From an uncultured Bacteroidota bacterium (GTDB lineage: Bacteria; Bacteroidota; Bacteroidia; Chitinophagales; Chitinophagaceae), in the NCBI GenBank assembly GCA_903912435.1, contig CAIWHI010000271.1, positions 87,327 through 132,088 on the forward strand: a stretch of 44,762 bases of DNA, in the 5' to 3' direction. How positions within the stretch are numbered: position 1 is the stretch's first letter; the number at the start of each line of letters is the position of its first letter. Under the pieces are notes generated by a model. The model worked only from the letters and a program-made list of their open reading frames with translations, did no database searches and had not been told where the DNA came from. The translations under genes were made by a program, and so were the position numbers. Shown here piece by piece: positions 10,901 through 25,714 of this stretch.

Positions 10901-12236
10901 AAAGCTTATAGACAGCATCAACGCCTGGAGTGCCAGAAGAATAGGCTACACCGCGAACATATGCTGTACCAATCTTAGTTGAAGAAGAATAACCAGCCAG
11001 GAAAGTCTTATTGGTGATAGCATTCTTAGCAGCCGAGTGCAGTTCTACTTGAACGATGTTGTCATTATTGAAGTCACCGACAAACTGATTAACATTGAAG
11101 TAGTAACCATAGTTAGCAGAAACAATTTGGTTTGCTACTGTCTCTGTGTCGATACCTTTACGAAGTGGAACAGTATTGTTATTGATGAACTCTACCCTAT
11201 AACCCTTCACATAGCCGATACCCGGTGAAGAGACAAGTGACATATAATTGGTATTAGCATTACCAGAAGAGTCAGTCTTGATCTGAGTAGAAAGTAGGAA
11301 TGGATTGACTACGTAGTCACCACTTGTTTCATAAGTGCGACGTGCCATGTCTGCACCAAGTGCTGCATACTGCGGATCTGACTTAACCGAAACAGGTTGA
11401 CCTGCAGAGAAGTCACAGAGTGAGAAGAACGTAGTGGTATTAGCCGTATCAGAGGTAGCCCTTGTAACCAAGTTGGGAATAATCTGAAGGCGATGAGCAC
11501 CAGGAGCTGAGTAGTTTGGAGAACCAGCTGCGTTGTCTACTAGGTTGTTGTCAATTTCTGGAGTGATAAGGGTTTCAGTAGCAGCAAAGCCAACCGAGAT
11601 ATTATCTGGTACATTGCTATACTTGCTAATGACAAGTGTTTGAGCAGGAACCCTAAGGAAGAAGCCCTTCTTGAAGATCACACCTTCTGTAGTAGTGAAA
11701 GCATAACCAGTGCCTGTTGAATTAACTACAGTAGCAACAACCACGTTACCAAGTTGAGCTCCAGCTCTAGTAGTTAATTGTAGTGACTCACCATTAGCAA
11801 AAGCCTGCTGTACAGCACCATTTACGTAAGTAGTTGAGTTCAAATACTTAACATAAAGAGTGTTAAGGTTTGGATCCTGTGACTGATAACCACCGATTGT
11901 ATTAACTACTATTGCATTCAAACCGCGTGGATTAGTAATTACTAAGCCTTGGAAGGAAGCAATATTAGGAATGGCATAGTTATTGGCATAAGTATCATTG
12001 ATCTTAACATAGTAGTAATTATTGTCAAAGGTAAAGGAGCAACCTTCAACTACAGATCCATCCTTATAAATGTTACGGCCGAACTTATTGATCTGATCCT
12101 GCAGCATAGACTGCATACTGTTAAGCTCACGAGTCTGAACCGCAATAGATGGTCTATACAGAACTTGGTAGTAGTTCTTCGTCTGGTTGAAGTCGTCGAA
12201 GTAGGGCTTAGTAGAGATATTGGTATCTAGGGTCAT
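7962..12236 (-). CDS. DUF4815-like virion structural protein, 1424 aa
   Basis: N-terminus NYYQVLYRPSIAVQTRELNSMQSMLQDQINKFGRNIYKDGSVVEG is typical of DUF4815 proteins of T4-like phages. Confidence 0.75.
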   Translation of the reverse strand: MTLDTNISTKPYFDDFNQTKNYYQVLYRPSIAVQTRELNSMQSMLQDQINKFGRNIYKDGSVVEGCSFTFDNNYYYVKINDTYANNYAIPNIASFQGLVITNPRGLNAIVVNTIGGYQSQDPNLNTLYVKYLNSTTYVNGAVQQAFANGESLQLTTRAGAQLGNVVVATVVNSTGTGYAFTTTEGVIFKKGFFLRVPAQTLVISKYSNVPDNISVGFAATETLITPEIDNNLVDNAAGSPNYSAPGAHRLQIIPNLVTRATSDTANTTTFFSLCDFSAGQPVSVKSDPQYAALGADMARRTYETSGDYVVNPFLLSTQIKTDSSGNANTNYMSLVSSPGIGYVKGYRVEFINNNTVPLRKGIDTETVANQIVSANYGYYFNVNQFVGDFNNDNIVQVELHSAAKNAITNKTFLAGYSSSTKIGTAYVRGVAYSSGTPGVDAVYKLYLFNVNMAPGYSVANVKSVVYQVASAFVGVADVVLTYSSTIGANIAVLQDTANEIMVHPFGQKALSTTGFASEQFVYRNRANANFLTTGVMSLTLPSADGTGSEQFYQQGSYSTSQEQTYIIIPTATGYSANKTGTVSGTSGSNALTGSGTAFTSQYTVGDYIYIYSEAAPQRITAIASDISLSLANNLGTSPSSNTHQKVWPAGVPINFNTAARTISATATTATLTLGETTNAAFQSSVYLDVLRSSTRSIQKSINRGSLVQINISNNAGGTTGPWCLGLPDVFQLNHVWVGSGTYSNANADQVSRFYIDNGHRDAFYGLAYLYSTGPVSNTSTLLISVDNFTKSETQGHGYFNANSYPIDDANTANTLAIQTYQIPQYVSRNTGTTSDLRDCIDFRPYAANTANLVTTTTNITTNPVTTTTISVPTPGSYLPSPDSFYEASITHYLPRVDRIALTTGGSMVINEGISSNLPAAPLEAPGTMTIGLVSIPPYPSLTPSVAKQYNRYDYAVQITMQQTRRFTMADIGKISNRIDRLEYYTSLSLLEQSAQSLQIRSSTTGQNRFKNGIMVDPFKDFTLSNTNDPQYRIAIDSSRNEGRPYFSTHKVGMYFDSVSSSNVQKTGDMVTLPYTTSVYQSQPYASKYHNCIEGNVYTYRGTITLDPPGTVDPDLTVNPDIVSNIDLSANWVNLQQYIGTAWGTSWGAWTTTGSSTSTQTGASQLVGQTQNADGSIAQNYQTQVINTTTSQIQQLGQQLSVQPTQTQVNLGNYVTNVSLLPYIKPTFILFKAVGMKPSAKLYAYFNSVPVSAQCMPVTPYSGSITTVGGVATANDGSLVYYDTKGNTYKFTSLNWGGTLSADSTGTVYGIFAVPGNTFNSGQLEFKLTDISNLSQGESAVTTQATSTYFGSPISVQTSQAVLQVRSATVSTQEVIQQQTVQQSSVSYTSSVISLPSPAVNPSTPPSPSAYDGRGESSGRDFGGG

Positions 12237-12247
12237 ATATTCCTCGA

Positions 12248-15200
12248 TTAAAACTGTATAACCAGCTTGAACTCTTCTTTATTTACAGCGGTCCTTGTGA
12301 CGGGCTGGATGTTTTCCATGTAGACTACCTTGCCAGATTCCCTGACCAGCTGAGGGTAAGTTATCAATGAGTAGGAGTTCACTTGGCCGATAGCTCCAGA
12401 AGTCTGACCCACAATGTTATTTGGTTGAGCCTGGAATCTGTTAGCACCGTTGATATCATTCAGTACTAGAACCGGAAGCACCTGTGAAACGACAGCTGTA
12501 GAACTCGATCCATTATTTATAGTGTGGCCAGCAACGAAAGCCAGTGACTGATTAACCGATGTAAGCTTGACATAGGAACTATTAGCAAAGATGACTACAC
12601 CGTTTGCTCCAGTAGTTTGATCGGTAAGAGTTTGACCATTAGAGAAGCTACCTGACATTGAAGTGATGGTCAAGTCTAGGTCATTAGAGGTGGAGACAAT
12701 TCTGGCATTAGCAGATGTAAAGTCTTGCTGTACGAATTCATTGTTAGTAAAGGTACCAGAGCTAGAAGTCAGCGTGATTCTAGCTGTTTGATTGAACTTA
12801 AGGCCAAAGGTAGAAACCTGATCTGTAGCTCCATTAGCGATCGAGATATCAGTAATGACCGCATAAGCATTGGAAGAGGAATCATAGAGAGTATCACCAG
12901 AAACGAACTGGCCGACTACGTTGGATAGCTGGAGCTGTGTATTGCTGTAAGCAGATGTCACAACAGCATTAGCACCAGAAGTTACTTCCGATACTACCTC
13001 GGCAGTAACACCAGGAGAGAAGTAGATAACATTGGCAGTTACCGTGTTGGCAGTAGTACCAGAGTAATAACCACGTAGAGTATAAGCAGTGTTATTAGCA
13101 AATGTACCCTTGACCGACTTCAACTGCAAAGCAGTGGAGTTACCCGATACCACAATACCAGCCGCATTTGAAGTCGACTGAACTACCACTTCTCCAGGAG
13201 TCCATGAACCTAGACTGCCGATAACGTAGTTTGATAGAACAGCATTGACACGATCGAAAGATCCCAGAGTTACTCTAACGTCAGCGAACTGAGGATCTTC
13301 CAGGAGTCCAATTCTTCTATAAGTGCCATAAGTCGGGAAGTAATAAGACTCATTAGGACCTGTGTCGAAGGTAACATCGATACCAGCATAGCGAGCACCA
13401 AGTTCTGTCATTACATCGAACCCATGACCGTGAACAGGCGAGATAAGCGGCGTAGCCGCGGCGCCGGAACCGTATACCCCATTAGCGACGAAAGACACAT
13501 TAGCGAAGGTATAGTTAGTACCGGTGTTAATCATTTCTACAGAGGTGATGTTATTAGCAGAACCGAAGGAGTTGTTTACCACTCCAAGGCCCACAGCATT
13601 AGAACCATCACCAGTAATCAACACGGTAGGCCCGATCTCGTATTCTGTGGAGTCATTCGGAAGGACCATGGTGCCGATAACTGTGGCATTGCCAGTAACC
13701 GCTCCATTCAGTAGGAAGTTCGCCTTCTGACCGAGGATGAAGCTGCCAGAGTTGTTGTTAATGGTGATGTTCGGGTTGGAAGTAGCCGAGTTCAGTAGAT
13801 AGCGAATCTGAGAGGACTCGCCCTTGACGTAAAAGTTGTTAGCCCAGAAGTAAGTGTTCGACCAATTAGCGCCGTTAACCGTTGTGAGGAACACCTGAGA
13901 CGTGTTAGCGTAAGCCACGATGGCATTAGCGCCTTGTGTGATATTAGCAGCGCTAACCAGATCCACCAGTTCGCCAGCAATGAAGTACTGACCGACAATG
14001 GAAGAATTAGAGATCGATAGATTCAAGCTGGTAAGGTTAGTGTTGACCACAGAACCATTTGCCTGAGTGACCGTAATAGAAGTAGGTTCTGCGGCTACAG
14101 GGACAGTATAGTAGACATTGGCTAGTAGAGTGTTGTCGAATGCGATGTTGACATTGACTGTGCTAGTGTTTACAGCCGTAACTCTGCGGACATTTGTGTT
14201 AGCATTCGTGCCTACCCTAATGAAGCTGCCGACCGCATAGCTAGTAGTGAAGCTTGTCTGGGCAGTGTTAGTAGAGACGACAGTGTTACCACCAGAACTG
14301 ATGTTAACCGTTCCAGGCTGCAGAGAACCAGAAGACACGGAGTCGATAAGAGGATAATACAGTGAGAACGGAGTAGCTAGGCTAGATCTGGCGACCTGGA
14401 TAGTAGAGCTGTTAGCCGTAAGAATAGTACCAGTTACACCTGTGTTAGCCTGAACAATTGTATCACCGACATTGAAGTAGCCGGCAGGATAGAGATAATT
14501 GATGTAGTCCACAGGCTGCTGAACTGTATAACCAGTCGATACAGTGCCACTGATACTGCTAAGGTCTAACCTGGCAAAAGTCTGGAACGGAGTAGAGCTG
14601 CTAACACGAACAGTTTTAGCACCACCAGAGCTAGAAGCTATCTGCCTGATCTGCCCTGCACCGAACCCAGCCTTGAGGTAGATAGAAGACTTAGCATAGA
14701 AGTTATCATATGCAGAGGATGTATTAGGCAGCTGAATGGTGAAGGCATCGATGAACTTGACAATGTTGCCCTTCTCATAGACCTGATAGTTGCTGCCACC
14801 GTTCGTGATCTGAATGGCCTCGATTGTGCCAGGAACAGCATTACTCTGAACATTAGCATTCTGAATGGCAGGGATATAAGAAGTCGTAGTGAACTTGGTG
14901 TTGGAAGTGGAGTCGATGGTGTACATATACTTCCAGATGTAGCCATCGGCTGCCTTGAAAGAACCTGCAGAGCTAATAAGTGTCGGCTTAACAGTGGAAG
15001 GAGCACCATAGCTATTGAACACACACTTGTAGACTTGGAACTGATCTGTCACTACAAAAAACTGCTTGGTATAAAGATCCGGATCATTTGGATCATACTG
15101 ACTATAGACAGTGCCAGTGGCCCAGTTATACCTCGGGATCATATTGATGACATCCCCAGAACGGACTAACTTACCGAACAGAAGATCATCATAAACAGTC

Positions 15201-15364
15201 TGTTGATACTGTGCCACAGAATCATTAGCTGTCGGAGGGTTAGAGTCGCTGGGCCATGGATTGGAACGGCCGGCAAAGACATAGTAGGCATGCCTTGTGT
15301 CCCTCACATTGGTAATGAAATTGTTAACCTGGTTGATATAATGATTTATAGTTAGTAATGCCAT
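12248..15364 (-). CDS. 8: Baseplate wedge subunit, T4 gp8-like with large internal expansion, 1038 aa
   Basis: N-terminal YYVFAGRSNPWPSDSNPP, IPRYNW and DGYIWKYMYTI, and C-terminal RESGKVVYMENIQPVTR..EEFKLVIQF, parallel T4 gp8 (FGRSEPWSS..., PRRDW, DGYVWEYLFEI, HSGEMIYMENRPPI...EEINILFTF). Confidence 0.82.
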   Translation of the reverse strand: MALLTINHYINQVNNFITNVRDTRHAYYVFAGRSNPWPSDSNPPTANDSVAQYQQTVYDDLLFGKLVRSGDVINMIPRYNWATGTVYSQYDPNDPDLYTKQFFVVTDQFQVYKCVFNSYGAPSTVKPTLISSAGSFKAADGYIWKYMYTIDSTSNTKFTTTSYIPAIQNANVQSNAVPGTIEAIQITNGGSNYQVYEKGNIVKFIDAFTIQLPNTSSAYDNFYAKSSIYLKAGFGAGQIRQIASSSGGAKTVRVSSSTPFQTFARLDLSSISGTVSTGYTVQQPVDYINYLYPAGYFNVGDTIVQANTGVTGTILTANSSTIQVARSSLATPFSLYYPLIDSVSSGSLQPGTVNISSGGNTVVSTNTAQTSFTTSYAVGSFIRVGTNANTNVRRVTAVNTSTVNVNIAFDNTLLANVYYTVPVAAEPTSITVTQANGSVVNTNLTSLNLSISNSSIVGQYFIAGELVDLVSAANITQGANAIVAYANTSQVFLTTVNGANWSNTYFWANNFYVKGESSQIRYLLNSATSNPNITINNNSGSFILGQKANFLLNGAVTGNATVIGTMVLPNDSTEYEIGPTVLITGDGSNAVGLGVVNNSFGSANNITSVEMINTGTNYTFANVSFVANGVYGSGAAATPLISPVHGHGFDVMTELGARYAGIDVTFDTGPNESYYFPTYGTYRRIGLLEDPQFADVRVTLGSFDRVNAVLSNYVIGSLGSWTPGEVVVQSTSNAAGIVVSGNSTALQLKSVKGTFANNTAYTLRGYYSGTTANTVTANVIYFSPGVTAEVVSEVTSGANAVVTSAYSNTQLQLSNVVGQFVSGDTLYDSSSNAYAVITDISIANGATDQVSTFGLKFNQTARITLTSSSGTFTNNEFVQQDFTSANARIVSTSNDLDLTITSMSGSFSNGQTLTDQTTGANGVVIFANSSYVKLTSVNQSLAFVAGHTINNGSSSTAVVSQVLPVLVLNDINGANRFQAQPNNIVGQTSGAIGQVNSYSLITYPQLVRESGKVVYMENIQPVTRTAVNKEEFKLVIQF

Positions 15365-15388
15365 CTCGCGCTCTATCTGGTTTTGGAC

Positions 15389-15397
15389 TATTTATTA
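15389..15397 (-). promoter_or_regulatory. Candidate late promoter core TAATAAATA upstream of the gp8-like gene
   Basis: Minus strand CTTAATAAATAGTCC, close to T4 late TATAAATA; 25 nt upstream of the ATG. Confidence 0.5.
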
Positions 15398-15410
15398 AGG
15401 CAATTAAGAC

Positions 15411-15436
15411 GGGCCTAGGCCCAGTCTAAGACTGGG
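15411..15436. repeat. Two overlapping perfect palindromes, GGGCCTAGGCCC and CCCAGTCTAAGACTGGG, at the 3' end of the gp7-position gene
   Basis: Read directly; the second hairpin spans the TAG stop codon (15426-15428). Confidence 0.8.
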
Positions 15437-17720
15437 TAAGGCTAAGAGCTACTGCCGCAGAAACAGAGGAAGTCTGAACATCCTTGAACTGATAGCGGCC
15501 GAACAGAGCGATACCAGATGGATGCACCAAGTTCCTCACCAGGGACTCGTAAGTTCCGATCATCCTGCTAGCAACCACTTCGTAGGAGAAGTCTTGGTAG
15601 TAGTTGGAGTCGAGCAGCTTCTGGGTATCGCTAGTGAAACTCTTATCAGAAGTCCATGAACCCTGACCCTTACCATGATCCAGCACGATGCTTGTTCCTG
15701 TAACCACCACGGAGCTATTAGCCGGCTGTAGGTATACCGTCTCATCCGGATTGTAACCGAACCCTGAATCCACTACCGCCACGGCTGTAGCGATGCCCTT
15801 AGCATTTAGAACACTGTCAGTAACCACGGCGTTATGACCCTTGATACTACCAAAGCCGTCATTTTGCCCTAGAGCTGTGATGGTAAGCTCATTGATATCA
15901 ACATAGGGGTTGGTAGTGTAACCACTGCCAGGATTTAGATTGCTTAGGAAGGCGATGGTACCGACCTGCTTAGTTAGGAACTGCAGGGCAATGTACAGAG
16001 GCGTGTCTAAGTTGTTAGGAATAGAAGTGCCCGGATTGCCAGAGAAGCTGCCCCAGTTAGTTGTTCTGATAACATTGTTCACCACGGCCGTGTGACCGGT
16101 CTGAGTATCTGTAACAGTAGCGCCATGAACGAAGTAGCCATGTGGCATGCCGGAGCCGAACTGAACTCCTAGCATGCTAGTGTTCTGAGAGAAAATTGTG
16201 GCATTGGCAGTGATAGTGGTCTTAGGGTTAACACCGGTCAGAATCACTTGACTAGAGGAAATGTTAGATACAAGCTTTATGCCGGGAACAAGGTTAGAGC
16301 TAGACAGGCTGGAATCCGTGCCTGTAGCGAAGATCAGCATTGAACCATTCGACCCCTCTGCATCATAGACATACAAATTGGCCAGGCCAAGGCTGGAATT
16401 AGAGAACGTCTCGCCATTAGCAACCAGATTGGCTGTCGCTGTAATGGCTTCCAGCATCACCACATTAGCCGAGGACGTAGCTGTATTGCCGACCGTAAAA
16501 ACACCGCTCTGAGTGTTGATGTAGACATTGAACCCCACACCACCGGCCGGCGGATCTATGATCGTGGAAGTGTAGCCGGTGATGATATCAGGGTTGATCT
16601 GATAGAGCTCTTGATTAATCAGGCCACCAACATTAAACCCTGCTCCAGCACCAGCACCGCCGAAGACAGCGGTCAGATTAGCAGCTGCTCCGTTGCTGCC
16701 GGTAACCGAATCGCCGATGTTGAAACTGTACTGAGGGGTGCCGGTGAAGTTGATCAGCTCAATGAAGGAGCTGTTAGCCCTTGTCACGGTGCCATTAGCA
16801 TTAGTTGTAGTGTCCAGCAGAGTATCACCTGCAGAGAAGACACCAGATAAGCCGCTAATGTTGAGGTTGTAAGTCGTAGCTACCACGATGTTAGGGCTGA
16901 GACTGAAGCCAGATCCGCCGTTTATCAGAGCGAAAGTCACCTTACCGTTCTGATCTACTGCAGAGACAACCCTAGCAATAGCTCCAACACCAGAACCCTG
17001 GACCGAAAGGCTATCACCGACATTGAACCCTAGGCCACCATTATTGATGGCTATAGCAGTCAGAGAGCCAAGCACCGTGGGAGCATTAGCTGGGGTTAGG
17101 GCAGGAACTGATTTCGATAGGATCTGCTCACCGAACTTGAAGGTGCCGCTAACCGCTGACAGGTACAGAACGTTGATGGTCCTCTGATTAACCACCTTCT
17201 GTTGAACGTTCTCTACCACAGCTTCGGCTGATAGGCTAGAGTTGTAGATCGGCTGCCCTACTAGCTGAGGAAGGTAAGGGCTGTCGGTGCATTCAATGTA
17301 CTTTGGCACCACCCAGTCGTTATCCGAAGTCTTGAAAACGAACTGACCTGGAATGTACAGCTCGATGTCCTCATTGAACAGGAGCCTGAACAACAGTTCG
17401 TAGGACCTCGGTGTGCCCTTGGTCCTGTAAAGATCTAAGATGTGCTTAACTAATAGCTGCCTATCAGCAGCGATGTCGACCGGGATGCTAGCAGCATAGG
17501 TGTTGGTGAAGTGAGTTACAAACTGCTGCTGAGTGCTATCCAGGTCAAGGTAGTCAGGGATCGATCTAGCTTTGCCGATGAACCCCGATCCGGTATCAGT
17601 CAGATCTGTCTGCTCTGCCCATTCGTAGTAGGCTCTCATGAAGGCGATGAAGTTAGGGCCTTGATCGTTATAGAAGGCAGGGAACTGTGACTGAATGAAT
17701 GGACTGATGAACTTATCCAT
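15426..17720 (-). CDS. Baseplate-associated structural protein, 764 aa (positional gp7 counterpart, tentative)
   Basis: FISPFIQSQFPAFYNDQGPNFIAFMRAYYEWAEQ... LYRTKGTPRSYELLFRLLFNEDIELYIPGQ is a motif seen in T4-like phages of bacteria outside enterics; located between gp6 and gp8. Confidence 0.6.
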   Translation of the reverse strand: MDKFISPFIQSQFPAFYNDQGPNFIAFMRAYYEWAEQTDLTDTGSGFIGKARSIPDYLDLDSTQQQFVTHFTNTYAASIPVDIAADRQLLVKHILDLYRTKGTPRSYELLFRLLFNEDIELYIPGQFVFKTSDNDWVVPKYIECTDSPYLPQLVGQPIYNSSLSAEAVVENVQQKVVNQRTINVLYLSAVSGTFKFGEQILSKSVPALTPANAPTVLGSLTAIAINNGGLGFNVGDSLSVQGSGVGAIARVVSAVDQNGKVTFALINGGSGFSLSPNIVVATTYNLNISGLSGVFSAGDTLLDTTTNANGTVTRANSSFIELINFTGTPQYSFNIGDSVTGSNGAAANLTAVFGGAGAGAGFNVGGLINQELYQINPDIITGYTSTIIDPPAGGVGFNVYINTQSGVFTVGNTATSSANVVMLEAITATANLVANGETFSNSSLGLANLYVYDAEGSNGSMLIFATGTDSSLSSSNLVPGIKLVSNISSSQVILTGVNPKTTITANATIFSQNTSMLGVQFGSGMPHGYFVHGATVTDTQTGHTAVVNNVIRTTNWGSFSGNPGTSIPNNLDTPLYIALQFLTKQVGTIAFLSNLNPGSGYTTNPYVDINELTITALGQNDGFGSIKGHNAVVTDSVLNAKGIATAVAVVDSGFGYNPDETVYLQPANSSVVVTGTSIVLDHGKGQGSWTSDKSFTSDTQKLLDSNYYQDFSYEVVASRMIGTYESLVRNLVHPSGIALFGRYQFKDVQTSSVSAAVALSLTQS

Positions 17721-19619: not shown

Positions 19620-19841
19620 TTATACAACATGCACATCAAAGCTCATGGCAGAAGGAGTATTCTTCCAGCTACGCCTAGCAGCATCGAATGCTTCGAAGTA
19701 ATCTGCTGCCTCGATGATAGTAGTAGACAGCAGCTGCCGCTGGTTCTCAGCACTCCATCCGAAGATCCGGATGCAGTACTGCTTGCCCCGTGGTACTCCC
19801 ATTCGAAAGTGCACTGGCTCTGAGGGGACATAAGCCATCAG
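19620..19841 (-). CDS. Hypothetical protein MAYVPSEPVHFRMGVPRGKQYCIRIFGW... (shorter start than the 19901 track ORF)
   Basis: Start overlaps the TGA of the upstream frame (CCTGATGGC), consistent with translational coupling. Confidence 0.55.
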   Translation of the reverse strand: MMAYVPSEPVHFRMGVPRGKQYCIRIFGWSAENQRQLLSTTIIEAADYFEAFDAARRSWKNTPSAMSFDVHVV

Positions 19842-20306
19842 GCAGCTGGGCCCAGGTATTCGAAGTCCCAGAGCATAAATCGATCGTCGGCTAGCACGCA
19901 TTTGAGCATTTTAGGTAGTCCTTTTTAGATCAATAAAATAAGACTCATCATAATCATAGCTGCCGAAGAAGAAGCCAGACCGGGTCGGCAATAGCTTAGC
20001 TGCACGGCTGGGGTGGGCCAGCACATCATTGCAGACGTCTAGCAGGTTACCCAGCTTTTCACGGCTAACATAGTAGCTACCACAGTCATCATTACCATTC
20101 TGGACGTTATCCACGAACCATGCATGGATGGCATTGGCCTTCCGCCAGTAGCAGACTTGGATAGTCACCTAAGCAATATTGCCGGCATCAAAGTCACCCA
20201 GCTCCGGCAAGGCATCACGAATAGCAACCGCGATATCAATATCCCGTGCACCGGCATAATCGCCCTAGATGTTACGCCGAGCTTGCAAAGTCATGTCTAA
20301 ACCCAT
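19840..20306 (-). pseudogene. Interrupted phage small-protein gene (MGLDM...YWRKANAIHAWFVDNVQNG..DDCGSYYVS...LLPTRSGFFFGS.DYDE.YFIDLKRT...), two in-frame TAG codons and a probable +1 frameshift
   Basis: Strong SD AAGGAGGT before ATG at 20306; TAG at 20267-20265 and 20171-20169; TAA at 19913-19911 with the likely C-terminus MLKCVLADDRFMLWDFEYLGPAA in the +1 frame. Confidence 0.7.
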
Positions 20307-20319
20307 CTTCTTTACCTCC

Positions 20320-20838
20320 TTATTGATTTGATATAACCGCTTTTCCAGAGACTTTAGCATTGCCAAAGACTTTAACATTGCCAGATACACCAGCATTGCC
20401 AGAGACTTTAGCATTTTCAGAGACATTAGCATTGTCAGACACACGGGCATCGCCAAACACCCAGGCATTGTCAGACACCCAGGCATTGTCAGACACCCAG
20501 GCATTGTCATAAATCATAGCATTGTCAGACACCCAGGCATCGCCAAACACAAGGACATCGCCATAAATCATAGCATTGTCATAGACTTTAGCATTGCCAA
20601 ACACAAGGACATCGCCATAAATCATAGCATTGTCAGACACACGGGCATCGCCAAACACACAGGCATTGTCATAGACTTCAGCATAGCCAGAGACAGTAGC
20701 ATTACCAAAGACTTTAGCATTGGCAGAAACCAAAGCTTTGCTAGAGACAGTAGCCGTGTCAGCAACCCAGCCGCCACCATTCGAGTGCTGATGGGCTGCT
20801 ACTGGACCTTTACCGTCTCCAAAATCATACTTGGTCAT
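20320..20838 (-). CDS. Hexapeptide-repeat (beta-helix-like) protein, about 172 aa from MTKYDFGDGKGP
   Basis: Repeats of DNAxVFGDARVSDNAxV type; ATG at 20838 preceded by AGGAACAAAGAAC. Confidence 0.75.
   Translation of the reverse strand: MTKYDFGDGKGPVAAHQHSNGGGWVADTATVSSKALVSANAKVFGNATVSGYAEVYDNACVFGDARVSDNAMIYGDVLVFGNAKVYDNAMIYGDVLVFGDAWVSDNAMIYDNAWVSDNAWVSDNAWVFGDARVSDNANVSENAKVSGNAGVSGNVKVFGNAKVSGKAVISNQ
20340..20760 (-). repeat. 18-nt in-frame tandem repeats (for example TGGGTGTCTGACAATGCC in tandem)
   Basis: Three adjacent near-identical 18-mers at about 20459-20512 and many diverged copies on both sides. Confidence 0.9.
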
Positions 20839-20860
20839 GTTCTTTGTTCCTATCTGCTTA

Positions 20861-20930
20861 ACCATTATGATCAATATAACCAGCCAGCAAAATTAGGTAC
20901 ATGCTCCTGGTGAATAGCTGCTATGCATGC
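20861..20930 (-). promoter_or_regulatory. Promoter/operator cassette copy 1 for the hexapeptide-repeat gene
   Basis: Minus strand CATAGCAGCTATTCACCAGGAGCATGTACCTAATTTTGCTGGCTGGTTATATTGATCATAATGG. Confidence 0.65.
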
Positions 20931-20941
20931 TAGAGCGGCTA

Positions 20942-21901
20942 TTAACCCCCTGCCATTTCGAGGGCCAATTCAAGAGCCTTGGTCTTAACGTTACGGTTGA
21001 ACCCGTACCAGGAAGAAGCCAAACGGCTGTCGGCACTACGACCAAGCAAGTGGTCGGTCATATAAGTTACGGAGTTGAAATTAGACCACCAAGTTCCGGC
21101 AGACATTTCGGCGCCGGGTTGAGTCTCAAGGATATCGAAAGCCAGCTTGGCATTCCGGCTGATCGCATTTGGATCATCCTTCTTGGAAGCAGTCGTCATG
21201 GGGAACACCTTCTTGAAGTATTCCATCGTCAAGTCATTCTTGGCAGTCTTCGAAGACAAGAACTCAGCCATCGTCTTGTACTTAGCAAGCTTTTCCTTGG
21301 CGATACCAAGCATCTCCTTGACATTATCACCATTGAACTGATTACGGTGGCTGATTTTAGCAAACCGTTCGACCTTGGTATTCAGCGACAGAGTAAGAGT
21401 GTTATTGCAAACCACTCGAATCGGAGTAAATCTAACATCGGTAGAGAACCCATACCGGTGGTTATTGGTGAACTGAAGATAAGACTCGACGGTATCATTA
21501 CCATTCAGAGTAAAGCCATCCTTAATCTTAGCCAGGAACCAGACAATCTGACCACCAGCCAAAGAACCGGCGGTGTGCATTTCCATGTCACCTTCCATCA
21601 CAAAGTCATTAAAGAACTCAGCAGCTTCACGATTCTGAACTTCATTCCAATCATCACTGACGATATCAAGAATCTTGTCATCGAACGATCGAACCAAAGC
21701 CGATCGACCAACATCTACTTGCTTACCACCAACAGTAGCATAAGCACGAACCTTTTCAACAGTCCAGTCAAGACCTGCTTCCTGCAGCATCTGTTCTGGG
21801 GTCAGGTCATTGTGGACCTTAACACCAAGACCATGCCAAGGAGTATCACCAGCATAAGCCATCTGAGCCTTGCCATTAACCATTTCGATATTGTGAGACA
21901 T
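20942..21901 (-). CDS. DUF932 / phage-plasmid-like protein, 319 aa
   Basis: GDTPWHGLGVKV N-terminus and YLQFTNNHRYGFSTDVRFTPIRVVCNNTLTLSL motif typical of DUF932 (TIGR03299) proteins. Confidence 0.8.
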   Translation of the reverse strand: MSHNIEMVNGKAQMAYAGDTPWHGLGVKVHNDLTPEQMLQEAGLDWTVEKVRAYATVGGKQVDVGRSALVRSFDDKILDIVSDDWNEVQNREAAEFFNDFVMEGDMEMHTAGSLAGGQIVWFLAKIKDGFTLNGNDTVESYLQFTNNHRYGFSTDVRFTPIRVVCNNTLTLSLNTKVERFAKISHRNQFNGDNVKEMLGIAKEKLAKYKTMAEFLSSKTAKNDLTMEYFKKVFPMTTASKKDDPNAISRNAKLAFDILETQPGAEMSAGTWWSNFNSVTYMTDHLLGRSADSRLASSWYGFNRNVKTKALELALEMAGG

Positions 21902-21935
21902 TTGAACTTTACCTTTATTTGATTGCTATAAGCAG

Positions 21936-21964
21936 ATTATACCAAGATAATTTTATTGTGTCAA
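21936..21964 (-). promoter_or_regulatory. Consensus sigma70-type promoter TTGACA-17-TATAAT for the DUF932 gene
   Basis: Minus strand TTGACAcaataaaattatcttggTATAAT; exact hexamers and 17-nt spacer. Confidence 0.8.
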
Positions 21965-21981
21965 CCGTTTTTTAGACTTAA

Positions 21982-22173
21982 TCAGAGATATGCAAACTCA
22001 TCTTCGTCTTCGTCTTCTTCGTAAGAGAAGAATTCGCTGGCTTCGGCCATTTCCTTGACCGAGCTTTCGCTCAACCAGTTCAAGCAAGCCTTGAGAACTT
22101 CGTCTCGATCGAGAATACCTTCTTCGATTGCATTCAGGATTTTGTTAGTGCACTCACGAACATGAATATACAT
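21982..22173 (-). CDS. Hypothetical acidic protein, 63 aa
   Basis: Short ORF with SD-like AAGGAGAG and an upstream cassette promoter. Confidence 0.65.
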   Translation of the reverse strand: MYIHVRECTNKILNAIEEGILDRDEVLKACLNWLSESSVKEMAEASEFFSYEEDEDEDEFAYL

Positions 22174-22193
22174 TCACTTACTCTCCTTATTCA

Positions 22194-22258
22194 TCATATG
22201 ATCAATATAACCAGGCAGCAAAATTAGGTAAATGCTGGCTGGTGCATATCAGCTATTC
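22194..22258 (-). promoter_or_regulatory. Promoter/operator cassette copy 2
   Basis: Minus strand AATAGCTGATATGCACCAGCCAGCATTTACCTAATTTTGCTGCCTGGTTATATTGATCATATGATGA. Confidence 0.65.
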
Positions 22259-22447
22259 ATCCAAAGCGGCGGTGACTTCGTAAACGTCGACTCCATAGTA
22301 CTCACCCGTGTTTGTTTCCGTAAACTTCAAAGCCGCAGTCTCGGCCAGTTGCCTGGAAGAATATACGCCCATGACTTCGCCAGGAACGAAATCCAACAAG
22401 CCAGCACAGTCGATAGTTCGGTTCTTATTGACTAGAAAGACGTTCAT
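22253..22447 (-). CDS. Hypothetical small protein MNVFLVNKNRTIDCAGLLDFVPGEVMGVYSS... (start trimmed from 22459)
   Basis: ATG at 22447 follows GGAG and the stop of the upstream small ORF. Confidence 0.6.
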   Translation of the reverse strand: MNVFLVNKNRTIDCAGLLDFVPGEVMGVYSSRQLAETAALKFTETNTGEYYGVDVYEVTAALDE

Positions 22448-22448
22448 A

Positions 22449-22586
22449 TTAGACTCCAAAAACCTTGATCATTACCAAGACGGATACGCCAAGGATGACA
22501 ATATACATCAAGATCGATAGGAGCATGGCCGAACCATGCTTATAGTCGTCAGGGGTAAGTCCATCCTGATCGATCAGCATCTGCAT
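22449..22586 (-). CDS. Small membrane protein, 45 aa: MQMLIDQDGLTPDDYKHGSAMLLSILMYIVILGVSVLVMIKVFGV
   Basis: Read directly; below the track cutoff; one hydrophobic segment; directly downstream of cassette copy 3. Confidence 0.6.
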   Translation of the reverse strand: MQMLIDQDGLTPDDYKHGSAMLLSILMYIVILGVSVLVMIKVFGV

Positions 22587-22595
22587 TCCCTTATT

Positions 22596-22636
22596 CCATT
22601 ATGATCAATGTATCATGGGTCCAAAATTAGGTAAAC
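22596..22636. repeat. Left arm of a 41-bp perfect inverted repeat
   Basis: ccattatgatcaatgtatcatgggtccaaaattaggtaaac is the exact reverse complement of 22931-22971. Confidence 0.95.
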
Positions 22637-22659
22637 AGACTTGATGCATAGCTCCTATG
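22596..22659 (-). promoter_or_regulatory. Promoter/operator cassette copy 3 (dyad CATAGGAGCTATG at 22647-22659)
   Basis: Minus strand GTTTACCTAATTTTGGACCCATGATACATTGATCATAATGG with an upstream dyad. Confidence 0.65.
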
Positions 22660-22754
22660 ATACCAGATTATAGCATCATCCAAGTTCACATTTTGATCAT
22701 CGGGAGAGCAAAGCTAATGATATCAACCACTTAAGCAAATATGACTATCTAACC

Positions 22755-22923
22755 ATATCAATGGCTTGACTTGAAACAGCGTCTCTCGCGCTGCTAGACC
22801 TCATCAGGTTGATAGATCTACCTTAAAGCGAGACGAGAGAGCTCTGGCGATCCAAACTATTTTCAAAAAACTTAAAATAAATTGCCCAACCTTTTCAACC
22901 ACTTGGGCCTAAGCCATTGATAT
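22755..22923. ncRNA. Candidate structured RNA or structured DNA element (origin-like), strand unknown
   Basis: 13-bp outer pairing ATATCAATGGCTT (22755-22767) with AAGCCATTGATAT (22911-22923), enclosing stem TCTCTCG+CGCT (22782-22792) / AGCG+CGAGAGA (22827-22840) and stem GCCCAA/TTGGGC (22884-22908). Confidence 0.4.
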
Positions 22924-22930
22924 TGTTGCT

Positions 22931-22971
22931 GTTTACCTAATTTTGGACCCATGATACATTGATCATAATGG
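22931..22971. repeat. Right arm of a 41-bp perfect inverted repeat
   Basis: gtttacctaattttggacccatgatacattgatcataatgg; matches 22596-22636 inverted. Confidence 0.95.
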
Positions 22972-22997
22972 TTAAGCAGATAGGAACAAAGAAGATG
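22931..22997 (+). promoter_or_regulatory. Promoter cassette copy 4, followed by an orphan leader
   Basis: Same leader GGTTAAGCAGATAGGAACAAAGAA as cassette copy 1, but the ATG is followed by ATC TAG. Confidence 0.6.
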
Positions 22998-23016
22998 ATC
23001 TAGATCGTCGATGATG

Positions 23017-23090
23017 TATAGCTCCTATGCACTAAGCAGCATGTACCTAATTTCGCCAGCCGGTTATATTGATCATATGATGAATAAGGA
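23017..23090 (+). promoter_or_regulatory. Promoter/operator cassette copy 5 for the AAA ATPase gene
   Basis: TATAGCTCCTATGcactaagcagcatGTACCTAATTTcgccagccGGTTATATTGATCATATGATGAATAAGGA. Confidence 0.65.
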
Positions 23091-23099
23091 AACTAACTG

Positions 23100-23954
23100 A
23101 TGCCTCGTGGCGTATATGTCCGCAAGAACTCCAATGTCAAGACCAACACCGGCATGAACAAGATCATGCACGTGCAGGTTCCTGTGATCGTCGAGACCGA
23201 TGAGCAAATCGAGGCTAAGCTCACTGAGCGCTTTGAGGTGCTCGAGGAGATGGCTCAGGCTGCGGTTGATGGCGACATCCGTGCCTTGATCGTGTCCGGT
23301 CCTGCCGGTCTTGGTAAGTCCTACACCGTCGAACAGGTGATCACGAAGGCAGACATTTCGGAAGAAAGCATTGTTAAGGGTTACGTCAAGGCGACTGGTG
23401 TTTATAAGTTGCTGTATCAGCACAAGAACCGCGGCGATGTCTTGGTGTTCGATGACGCTGATACTGTGTTCTTCGATGACATTTCTCTTGGCTTCTTGAA
23501 AGCCGTGTTGGACTCCAGTGATCGTCGTAACGTCTGCTATCGTGCCGAATTTAGCCTGATCGATGAGGAGACTGCCGAGCGTTTGCCCAAAAGCTTCCAG
23601 TTCGATGGCACGATCATCTTCGTGACTAACTTAGATTTCGATGTCATGATCGAACGTGGCCACAAGCTGGCTCCTCACCTGCAGGCACTTGTTTCACGTG
23701 CGCACTATATCGACCTGGCTATGAAGAATGCGCGTGACTACCTGATGCGCATCCGGATGGTGATGAAAACCGGCCTGCTGGATAAGACCGGCATGGATCA
23801 GGCAGCTCAGGCCGATGTCATGGACTTCATCGAGGAGAACCATATGCAGCTGCGTGAGCTGTCTCTTCGAATGGCTCTTAAGATCGCTGCTCACCGTCGC
23901 AAGGGTGGCAATTGGAAGCGTAGTGCCCGTGTTACCTGCATGAAAGCAGCGTAA
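23100..23954 (+). CDS. AAA-type ATPase, 284 aa
   Basis: Walker A GPAGLGKS, Walker B VLVFDDAD, FVTN sensor-like motif. Confidence 0.8.
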   Translation: MPRGVYVRKNSNVKTNTGMNKIMHVQVPVIVETDEQIEAKLTERFEVLEEMAQAAVDGDIRALIVSGPAGLGKSYTVEQVITKADISEESIVKGYVKATGVYKLLYQHKNRGDVLVFDDADTVFFDDISLGFLKAVLDSSDRRNVCYRAEFSLIDEETAERLPKSFQFDGTIIFVTNLDFDVMIERGHKLAPHLQALVSRAHYIDLAMKNARDYLMRIRMVMKTGLLDKTGMDQAAQADVMDFIEENHMQLRELSLRMALKIAAHRRKGGNWKRSARVTCMKAA

Positions 23955-23994
23955 CATTAGCTAACGTTGTTAAAGAACGTATCATGGCCATATG

Positions 23995-24007
23995 CATAGC
24001 TGCTATT
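23995..24007 (+). promoter_or_regulatory. Isolated dyad CATAGCTGCTATT without the TACCTAATTT box
   Basis: Matches the dyads of the cassette family upstream of a small-ORF cluster. Confidence 0.4.
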
Positions 24008-24052
24008 TGGTCTGACCCTAAGTAATAAGTAATAAGTAATAAGGAATATAAT

Positions 24053-24136
24053 ATGATCGAGATCGGTAATAATTTGACCAGCATCATCTATGCGGTGCTT
24101 GGTATTGCATTCCTCTATTTCGTTTGGTTCAAATAG
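24053..24136 (+). CDS. Micro-membrane protein, 27 aa: MIEIGNNLTSIIYAVLGIAFLYFVWFK
   Basis: Read directly; AAGGAATATAAT ahead of the ATG; single hydrophobic helix. Confidence 0.5.
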   Translation: MIEIGNNLTSIIYAVLGIAFLYFVWFK

Positions 24137-24180
24137 ATGAGCGAGAGAGAGAATATAAATCACAATACGAGGATAATAAT

Positions 24181-24261
24181 ATGAATATCGCCGCCGCTGC
24201 CGCCGTCCGCCTGACGTTCGGCATTGGTCTATTCGTTTACTGCGAAGGTGAGTACCTATAA
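24181..24261 (+). CDS. Micro-ORF, 26 aa: MNIAAAAAVRLTFGIGLFVYCEGEYL
   Basis: GAGGATAATAAT SD-like sequence; TAATG overlap with the next gene at 24261. Confidence 0.5.
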   Translation: MNIAAAAAVRLTFGIGLFVYCEGEYL

Positions 24262-24491
24262 TGAATGAAAAAGAAGTGATTGTTCGTATCGCAAATAAAG
24301 TCTCACAACTTCGTATCGATATTCTGAAGGAAGAAGGATTGCAGCCAGATGTCGCGCTGGCTATTGGATCGGCGATGTTGTCCGAGGCAGAATTCCTCTA
24401 TCGATCCGTCCTAGGACCCAAGAATACGGCACAACTTTTATATATTGCGGCAGATGAAAATGCCACTCGATCCGCGGATGATATCACGTAA
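24261..24491 (+). CDS. Hypothetical protein, 76 aa
   Basis: ORF coupled to the upstream micro-ORF. Confidence 0.6.
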   Translation: MNEKEVIVRIANKVSQLRIDILKEEGLQPDVALAIGSAMLSEAEFLYRSVLGPKNTAQLLYIAADENATRSADDIT

Positions 24492-24493
24492 GA

Positions 24494-24545
24494 CATAGGA
24501 ACTATGCAGGTAGGAGCATGTACCTAATTTTTAGGCCATGGTATT
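24494..24545 (+). promoter_or_regulatory. Promoter/operator cassette copy 6 (dyad CATAGGAACTATG at 24494-24506)
   Basis: CATAGGAACTATGcaggtaggagcatGTACCTAATTTttaggccatGGTATTCT. Confidence 0.6.
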
Positions 24546-24636
24546 CTCCGCTGTCTCACATCAACCCAGATTTAATTTTAATTGATTTAAATCTAAATTA
24601 TGATCCACGTAGATATTACCAACAACTGTTACAAAT

Positions 24637-24650
24637 ACAACAATTGTTGT
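24637..24650. repeat. Perfect 14-nt palindrome ACAACAATTGTTGT
   Basis: Read directly in the noncoding leader between cassette copy 6 and the 24738 gene. Confidence 0.8.
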
Positions 24651-24674
24651 GCCTGAGGCGTTTAATTTACCGTT

Positions 24675-24711
24675 GATTTATGCTCTGGGACTTCGAATAC
24701 CTGGGCCCAGC
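24675..24711 (+). repeat. 37-nt perfect inverted copy of 19845-19881
   Basis: gatttatgctctgggacttcgaatacctgggcccagc on + here and on - at 19845-19881; encodes MLWDFEYLGPA in both. Confidence 0.9.
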
Positions 24712-24737: not shown

Positions 24738-25157
24738 ATGGAAAATATATACGATCATTTTGAGAACACCATCAAGGAATATTTTGGCGAACGAATGAAG
24801 ACAGATGAAGAACTATGTCGCAAAATCTGGTCTTCTCTTGCTAATGTAGATTGGTATTATATTGGTGAGCGGCCATTGCTACTACAAGTGTCGTATTCTT
24901 TTCGAGCGGCTGGTGGAATGATTGCCAATATCATCGAGAGGGGTGACTACATGGATTGGTATTGTAGTGGACCAGATGGAATTGTCAACAATGAATTCCG
25001 CTATGCTATGAGGAAGGTTGGATATCTGGCTGATGATGTTGGTATGCTCTGTGATGGGCCGGGTTGTATTGAAAAAGCAACATGTGGCTGGCCTGATGAA
25101 AATGGTGGACCATATCGTAACACATGCTATAAACACTATAAGATGCACAATAAATAA
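24738..25157 (+). CDS. Hypothetical protein, 139 aa, with CxxxxC/C..H-type residues near the C-terminus
   Basis: ORF in a packed accessory operon. Confidence 0.65.
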   Translation: MENIYDHFENTIKEYFGERMKTDEELCRKIWSSLANVDWYYIGERPLLLQVSYSFRAAGGMIANIIERGDYMDWYCSGPDGIVNNEFRYAMRKVGYLADDVGMLCDGPGCIEKATCGWPDENGGPYRNTCYKHYKMHNK

Positions 25158-25637: not shown

Positions 25638-25714
25638 GGCCACGTGGTCCAATTGGATAGGTCAAGCGCCTTCTAAGCGTTTCGGTGCAGGTTCGAATCC
25701 TGCCGTGGTCGCCA
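25638..25714 (+). tRNA. tRNA-Arg (anticodon UCU), CCA encoded
   Basis: Acceptor GGCCACG/CGTGGTC, anticodon stem AGCGC/GCGTT with loop CTTCTAA, T arm GCAGG-TTCGAAT-CCTGC, discriminator G then CCA. Confidence 0.93.

Follow-up and report, generated by a model that had tools for sequence, protein, structure and literature searches.

A PHROG 7971 gene interrupted by stop codons beside a probably inverted segment of a T4-like phage contig

The interrupted gene and its parts

The window analyzed here, a stretch of 44,762 nucleotides, forms the end of a contig of 132,088 bases that carries the gp6 and gp32 genes of T4-like phages. One minus-strand gene is broken by stop codons and a change of frame, and the genes neighbouring it are of full length. 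The parts of the broken gene are the following.

19838-20306, minus strand: broken gene of the MGLDM family (PHROG 7971), with two in-frame TAG codons, one TAA and a continuation in another frame (from the sequence and a profile match)
20315-20321, minus strand: AAGGAGG ribosome-binding site, 8 bases upstream of the start codon ATG 20306 (read from the sequence)
20265-20267, minus strand: first in-frame TAG, 13 codons after the start (from the sequence)
20169-20171, minus strand: second in-frame TAG (from the sequence)
19911-20168, minus strand: longest open piece, 85 codons with GTG first, ending in TAA 19911-19913
19838-19909, minus strand: C-terminal piece in the other frame, MLKCVLADDRFMLWDFEYLGPAA, without the SSW end of the family

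The last piece is read in the next frame; it starts at ATG 19909 and stops at TGA 19840-19838, where it overlaps the adjacent gene's start codon as TGATG. This start codon, the strong ribosome-binding site, both TAGs, the TAA, the continuation in the next frame and the TGATG overlap, all described in the initial annotation, were reproduced letter for letter. The annotation had also taken the fragments for one phage protein, and a profile built from intact homologs only matches across both TAGs with E = 4e-42. Since this profile spans both TAGs and 19 of 21 invariant family columns are kept, the unity of the pieces is not a matter of chance.

Stop and start codons adjoin at three places of the gene (TAG-GTG, TAA-A-ATG, and TGATG), as would suit separate synthesis of the 85-codon GTG piece and the 23-codon piece by re-initiation. 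Against such split translation, no ribosome-binding site is evident ahead of the GTG, the first TAG has no adjoining start, and no homolog is split likewise. Further, an intact homolog modelled with a mean pLDDT of 85 has an α/β fold in which the outermost strands, residues 4-14 at the start and 151-157 at the end, lie outside the 85-codon piece, so that the pieces are predicted to lack the outer strands of the fold. Taken together, we consider split translation highly improbable.

Elsewhere on the contig, outside the window, two runs of adjacent ORFs (12060-17657 and 68859-71912) look, on visual inspection of the ORF list, like genes for DNA polymerase and terminase that are split by intein-like or homing-endonuclease-like ORFs.

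Intact homologs of the PHROG 7971 family

The longest open piece matches PHROG 7971, an unnamed phage family of unknown function (E = 2.2e-10 over read-through residues 48-139). No Pfam or NCBIfam family scores above its cut-off for the MGLDM protein, and no solved structure is a convincing match to its fold; the two significant fold matches among viral structures carry no function. A scan of the IMG/VR viral contigs yielded 42 loci with homologs. Each of the 42 is a single uninterrupted frame starting with MGLD, though in L032 the start is at the contig edge and L042 has lost its 3' end to the contig boundary; homologs split into separate genes, which would have spoken against the initial annotation, were not seen.

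The IMG/VR proteins with the layout MGLDMYL...YWRKAN...GFFFGSYD...YxSSW (for instance, L044, L031, and L028) have the N-terminus, the core motifs and their order in common with the window copy, with an identity of up to 61% over most of the core in the longer matches. They are mostly single frames of 147-175 aa with an SSW end, whereas the window copy ends in DFEYLGPAA. The complete homologs terminate in SSW and the most distant ones in WW; in the window copy the family C-terminal YxSSW is replaced by YLGPAA even when the frameshift is read through. Among the 21 columns invariant in 23 homologs, the read-through protein has lost two, Tyr6 being replaced by Thr and the terminal Trp being gone. 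Thus the gene belongs to the family by its profile match, but has neither the single open frame nor the SSW-type end of its members, differing from PHROG 7971 by the two TAGs, the TAA with its frameshift and the altered C-terminus. As far as the sequence goes, it appears to be the remnant of a PHROG 7971 member rather than a working one.

The read-through protein scores 158 bits against the family profile, compared with 87-258 bits for intact members (leave-one-out). Since this score is inside the range of the intact members, the loss looks recent. The same good preservation speaks against a dead gene, although it indicates no more than a recent loss or an error in the sequence. An error of sequencing or assembly, leaving the phage gene itself intact, would explain three interruptions in one short, otherwise well-preserved gene; the source assembly is fragmented (1039 contigs) and the gene has a repeat at its 3' end. 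However, two of the three interruptions are substitutions to TAG rather than insertions or deletions, the long genes nearby are open and of full length, and the altered C-terminus would remain to be explained. Such an error is therefore, in our judgment, unlikely.

No intact second copy is present in the assembly, and the scan of the genome contigs for the family gave one short match. No close relative with an intact copy was found: in the nearest relative with the same neighbours, a 10,965-base contig (L097/L099), another gene occupies the position and there is no family match, and a search of 15 records of T4-like relatives, run without a positive control, gave no match. The 396 genomes of the phylum searched contain, beyond the window's own, two family matches, neither of them a close copy.

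TAG usage and tRNA genes of the contig

Family residues are conserved on either side of every interruption, as would be expected if amber suppression at two sites and one +1 frameshift produced the full protein. In-frame TAG codons with homology on both sides are likewise known from phages with reassigned TAG, Crassvirales and others (PMC10607447, PMC11210395); unlike the phages described there, the contig studied here uses TAG as a normal stop and no suppressor tRNA was found on it. Of the 155 ORFs selected on the contig, 20 terminate in TAG, one of them a 764-aa baseplate gene. For ORFs of at least 100 aa (13 of them ending in TAG), a further stop comes at a median of 7 codons beyond TAG, compared with 6 beyond TAA or TGA; because these distances are nearly the same, TAG is an ordinary terminator in this contig. 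Read with the standard code, the long conserved genes are open, and the pattern of a reassigned TAG, namely its occurrence within many conserved genes together with its avoidance as a terminator, is absent.

The tRNA complement agrees with this usage. None of the 25 tRNA genes on the contig, which may be incomplete, has the CUA anticodon of the suppressor that the initial annotation suggested looking for; 24 of them are clustered in L048 and one, tRNA-Arg(TCT), is in the window at 25638-25714 (plus strand). A change of code was rejected on the basis of the TAG usage and the tRNA set. A programmed +1 frameshift would be expected to be conserved, but the homologs read a single frame at this place. 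Recoding, needed in none of the homologs, also leaves the C-terminal motif absent from the read-through product, and we regard it as extremely improbable. A suppressor tRNA could be encoded in a missing part of the phage genome, and the lost C-terminus would still be unexplained. Thus, of the two possibilities raised at the outset, recent pseudogenization is supported by the intact homologs and the lost C-terminus, and recoding is not supported, given TAG usage, tRNAs, and homologs.

Orientation of the segment adjoining the gene

The 3' end of the broken gene coincides with a repeat bounding a segment of about 4.8 kb.

19845-19881, minus strand: copy of a perfect 37-bp inverted repeat at the gp6-side junction
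24675-24711, plus strand: copy of this perfect 37-bp inverted repeat at the gp32-side junction
19845-24711, no strand: segment inverted, by gene order, with respect to the closest relatives L053 and L097/L099
19620-19838, minus strand: small gene adjoining the junction on the gp6 side, whose homolog in L053 follows that of 24261-24491
24261-24491, plus strand: small gene inside the segment, located beside the gp6 side in L053

The last codons of the broken gene (RFMLWDFEYLGPA) fall inside this repeat; neither the repeat and its junction nor the missing YxSSW end had been noticed in the initial annotation. Compared with the two closest relatives, which show one junction apiece, the DNA between the repeat copies lies in the opposite orientation. 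In L053, whose gp6 is 78% identical to that of the window, the homolog of 24261-24491 is directly followed by the homolog of 19620-19838, further small ORFs, and gp6. The latter small-gene homolog was found in the gp6 scan; the gene's own scan confirmed no relatives. In L097/L099, whose DUF932 protein is 92% identical, the DUF932 and repeat-protein genes are continued by the homolog of 24738-25157 and by the genes leading to gp32. The window pairs these genes in the opposite way on both sides, with the 37-bp repeat in both junction intervals. Because of this opposite pairing, 19845-24711 appears to be inverted relative to both relatives, a conclusion that joins two phages, neither spanning both junctions. 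Since its last codons lie in the junction repeat, the 3' end of the broken gene would then be at the inversion breakpoint.

The repeat was not seen at the junctions of L053 and L097/L099, and its exact 31-base core is absent from the viral contigs. Because the amino acids specified by the repeat can be aligned with the family C-terminus, the simplest reading traces it to the 3' end of the MGLDM gene; it either was copied during the inversion, possibly by staggered breaks, or was present twice beforehand and recombined. In 24 further loci with DUF932 and gp32-side genes (L105, L109 and 22 others), the orientation of the DUF932 gene relative to the gp32-side genes varies. As it is the same in 13 and opposite in 11, some of these loci being near-duplicates, gene order in this interval seems to be unstable across the group, which suggests that the interval has been rearranged repeatedly.

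The segment also carries divergent promoter-like elements. A dispersed promoter- or leader-like element of ~55-85 nt, which includes ACCTAATTTT ... TATATTGATCAT when read in the transcribed direction, occurs at 20851-20928, 22176-22260, 22588-22659, 22929-22982, 23014-23099, and 24492-24544. Four further clear copies are found on the rest of the contig and eight in L097/L099; the element accounts for the inverted repeats I1-I4. A perfect match to a σ70-type promoter (TTGACA-17-TATAAT, with TG before the second hexamer) precedes the DUF932/TIGR03299 gene at 21936-21964 (minus strand).

The Mu G segment is an invertible phage segment bounded by inverted repeats. The segment studied here is likewise repeat-bounded and is found in the opposite orientation in relatives, a comparison between phages. 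Were it a reversible switch, and the MGLDM gene a bystander in decay at one of its ends, a flip would swap the gene arms transcribed into the gp32 side and the gp6 baseplate side. Unlike Mu, the phage contig has no match to resolvase or tyrosine recombinase families and the repeat is not seen at the relatives' junctions. A one-off rearrangement is favoured because serine and tyrosine recombinases (PF00239 and PF00589) have no match on this possibly incomplete contig, and a switch is very unlikely; the matches to a literature search on phage inversions contained nothing bearing on this case.

Very probably, then, the broken gene is an accessory gene that has died recently in a T4-like phage, at a rearrangement breakpoint. 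We suggest that a PHROG 7971 gene, one of a family of α/β proteins of about 150-175 aa, was inactivated recently by two nonsense codons and a frameshift, its C-terminus without the final SSW lying at the edge of the 4.8 kb inversion. No functional protein would be made, as translation would stop after 13 codons. On this reading, amber recoding in this T4-like phage, tempting as it seems, lacks support, and the broken gene would mark the rearrangement junction that lies between the gp32 and gp6 baseplate regions.
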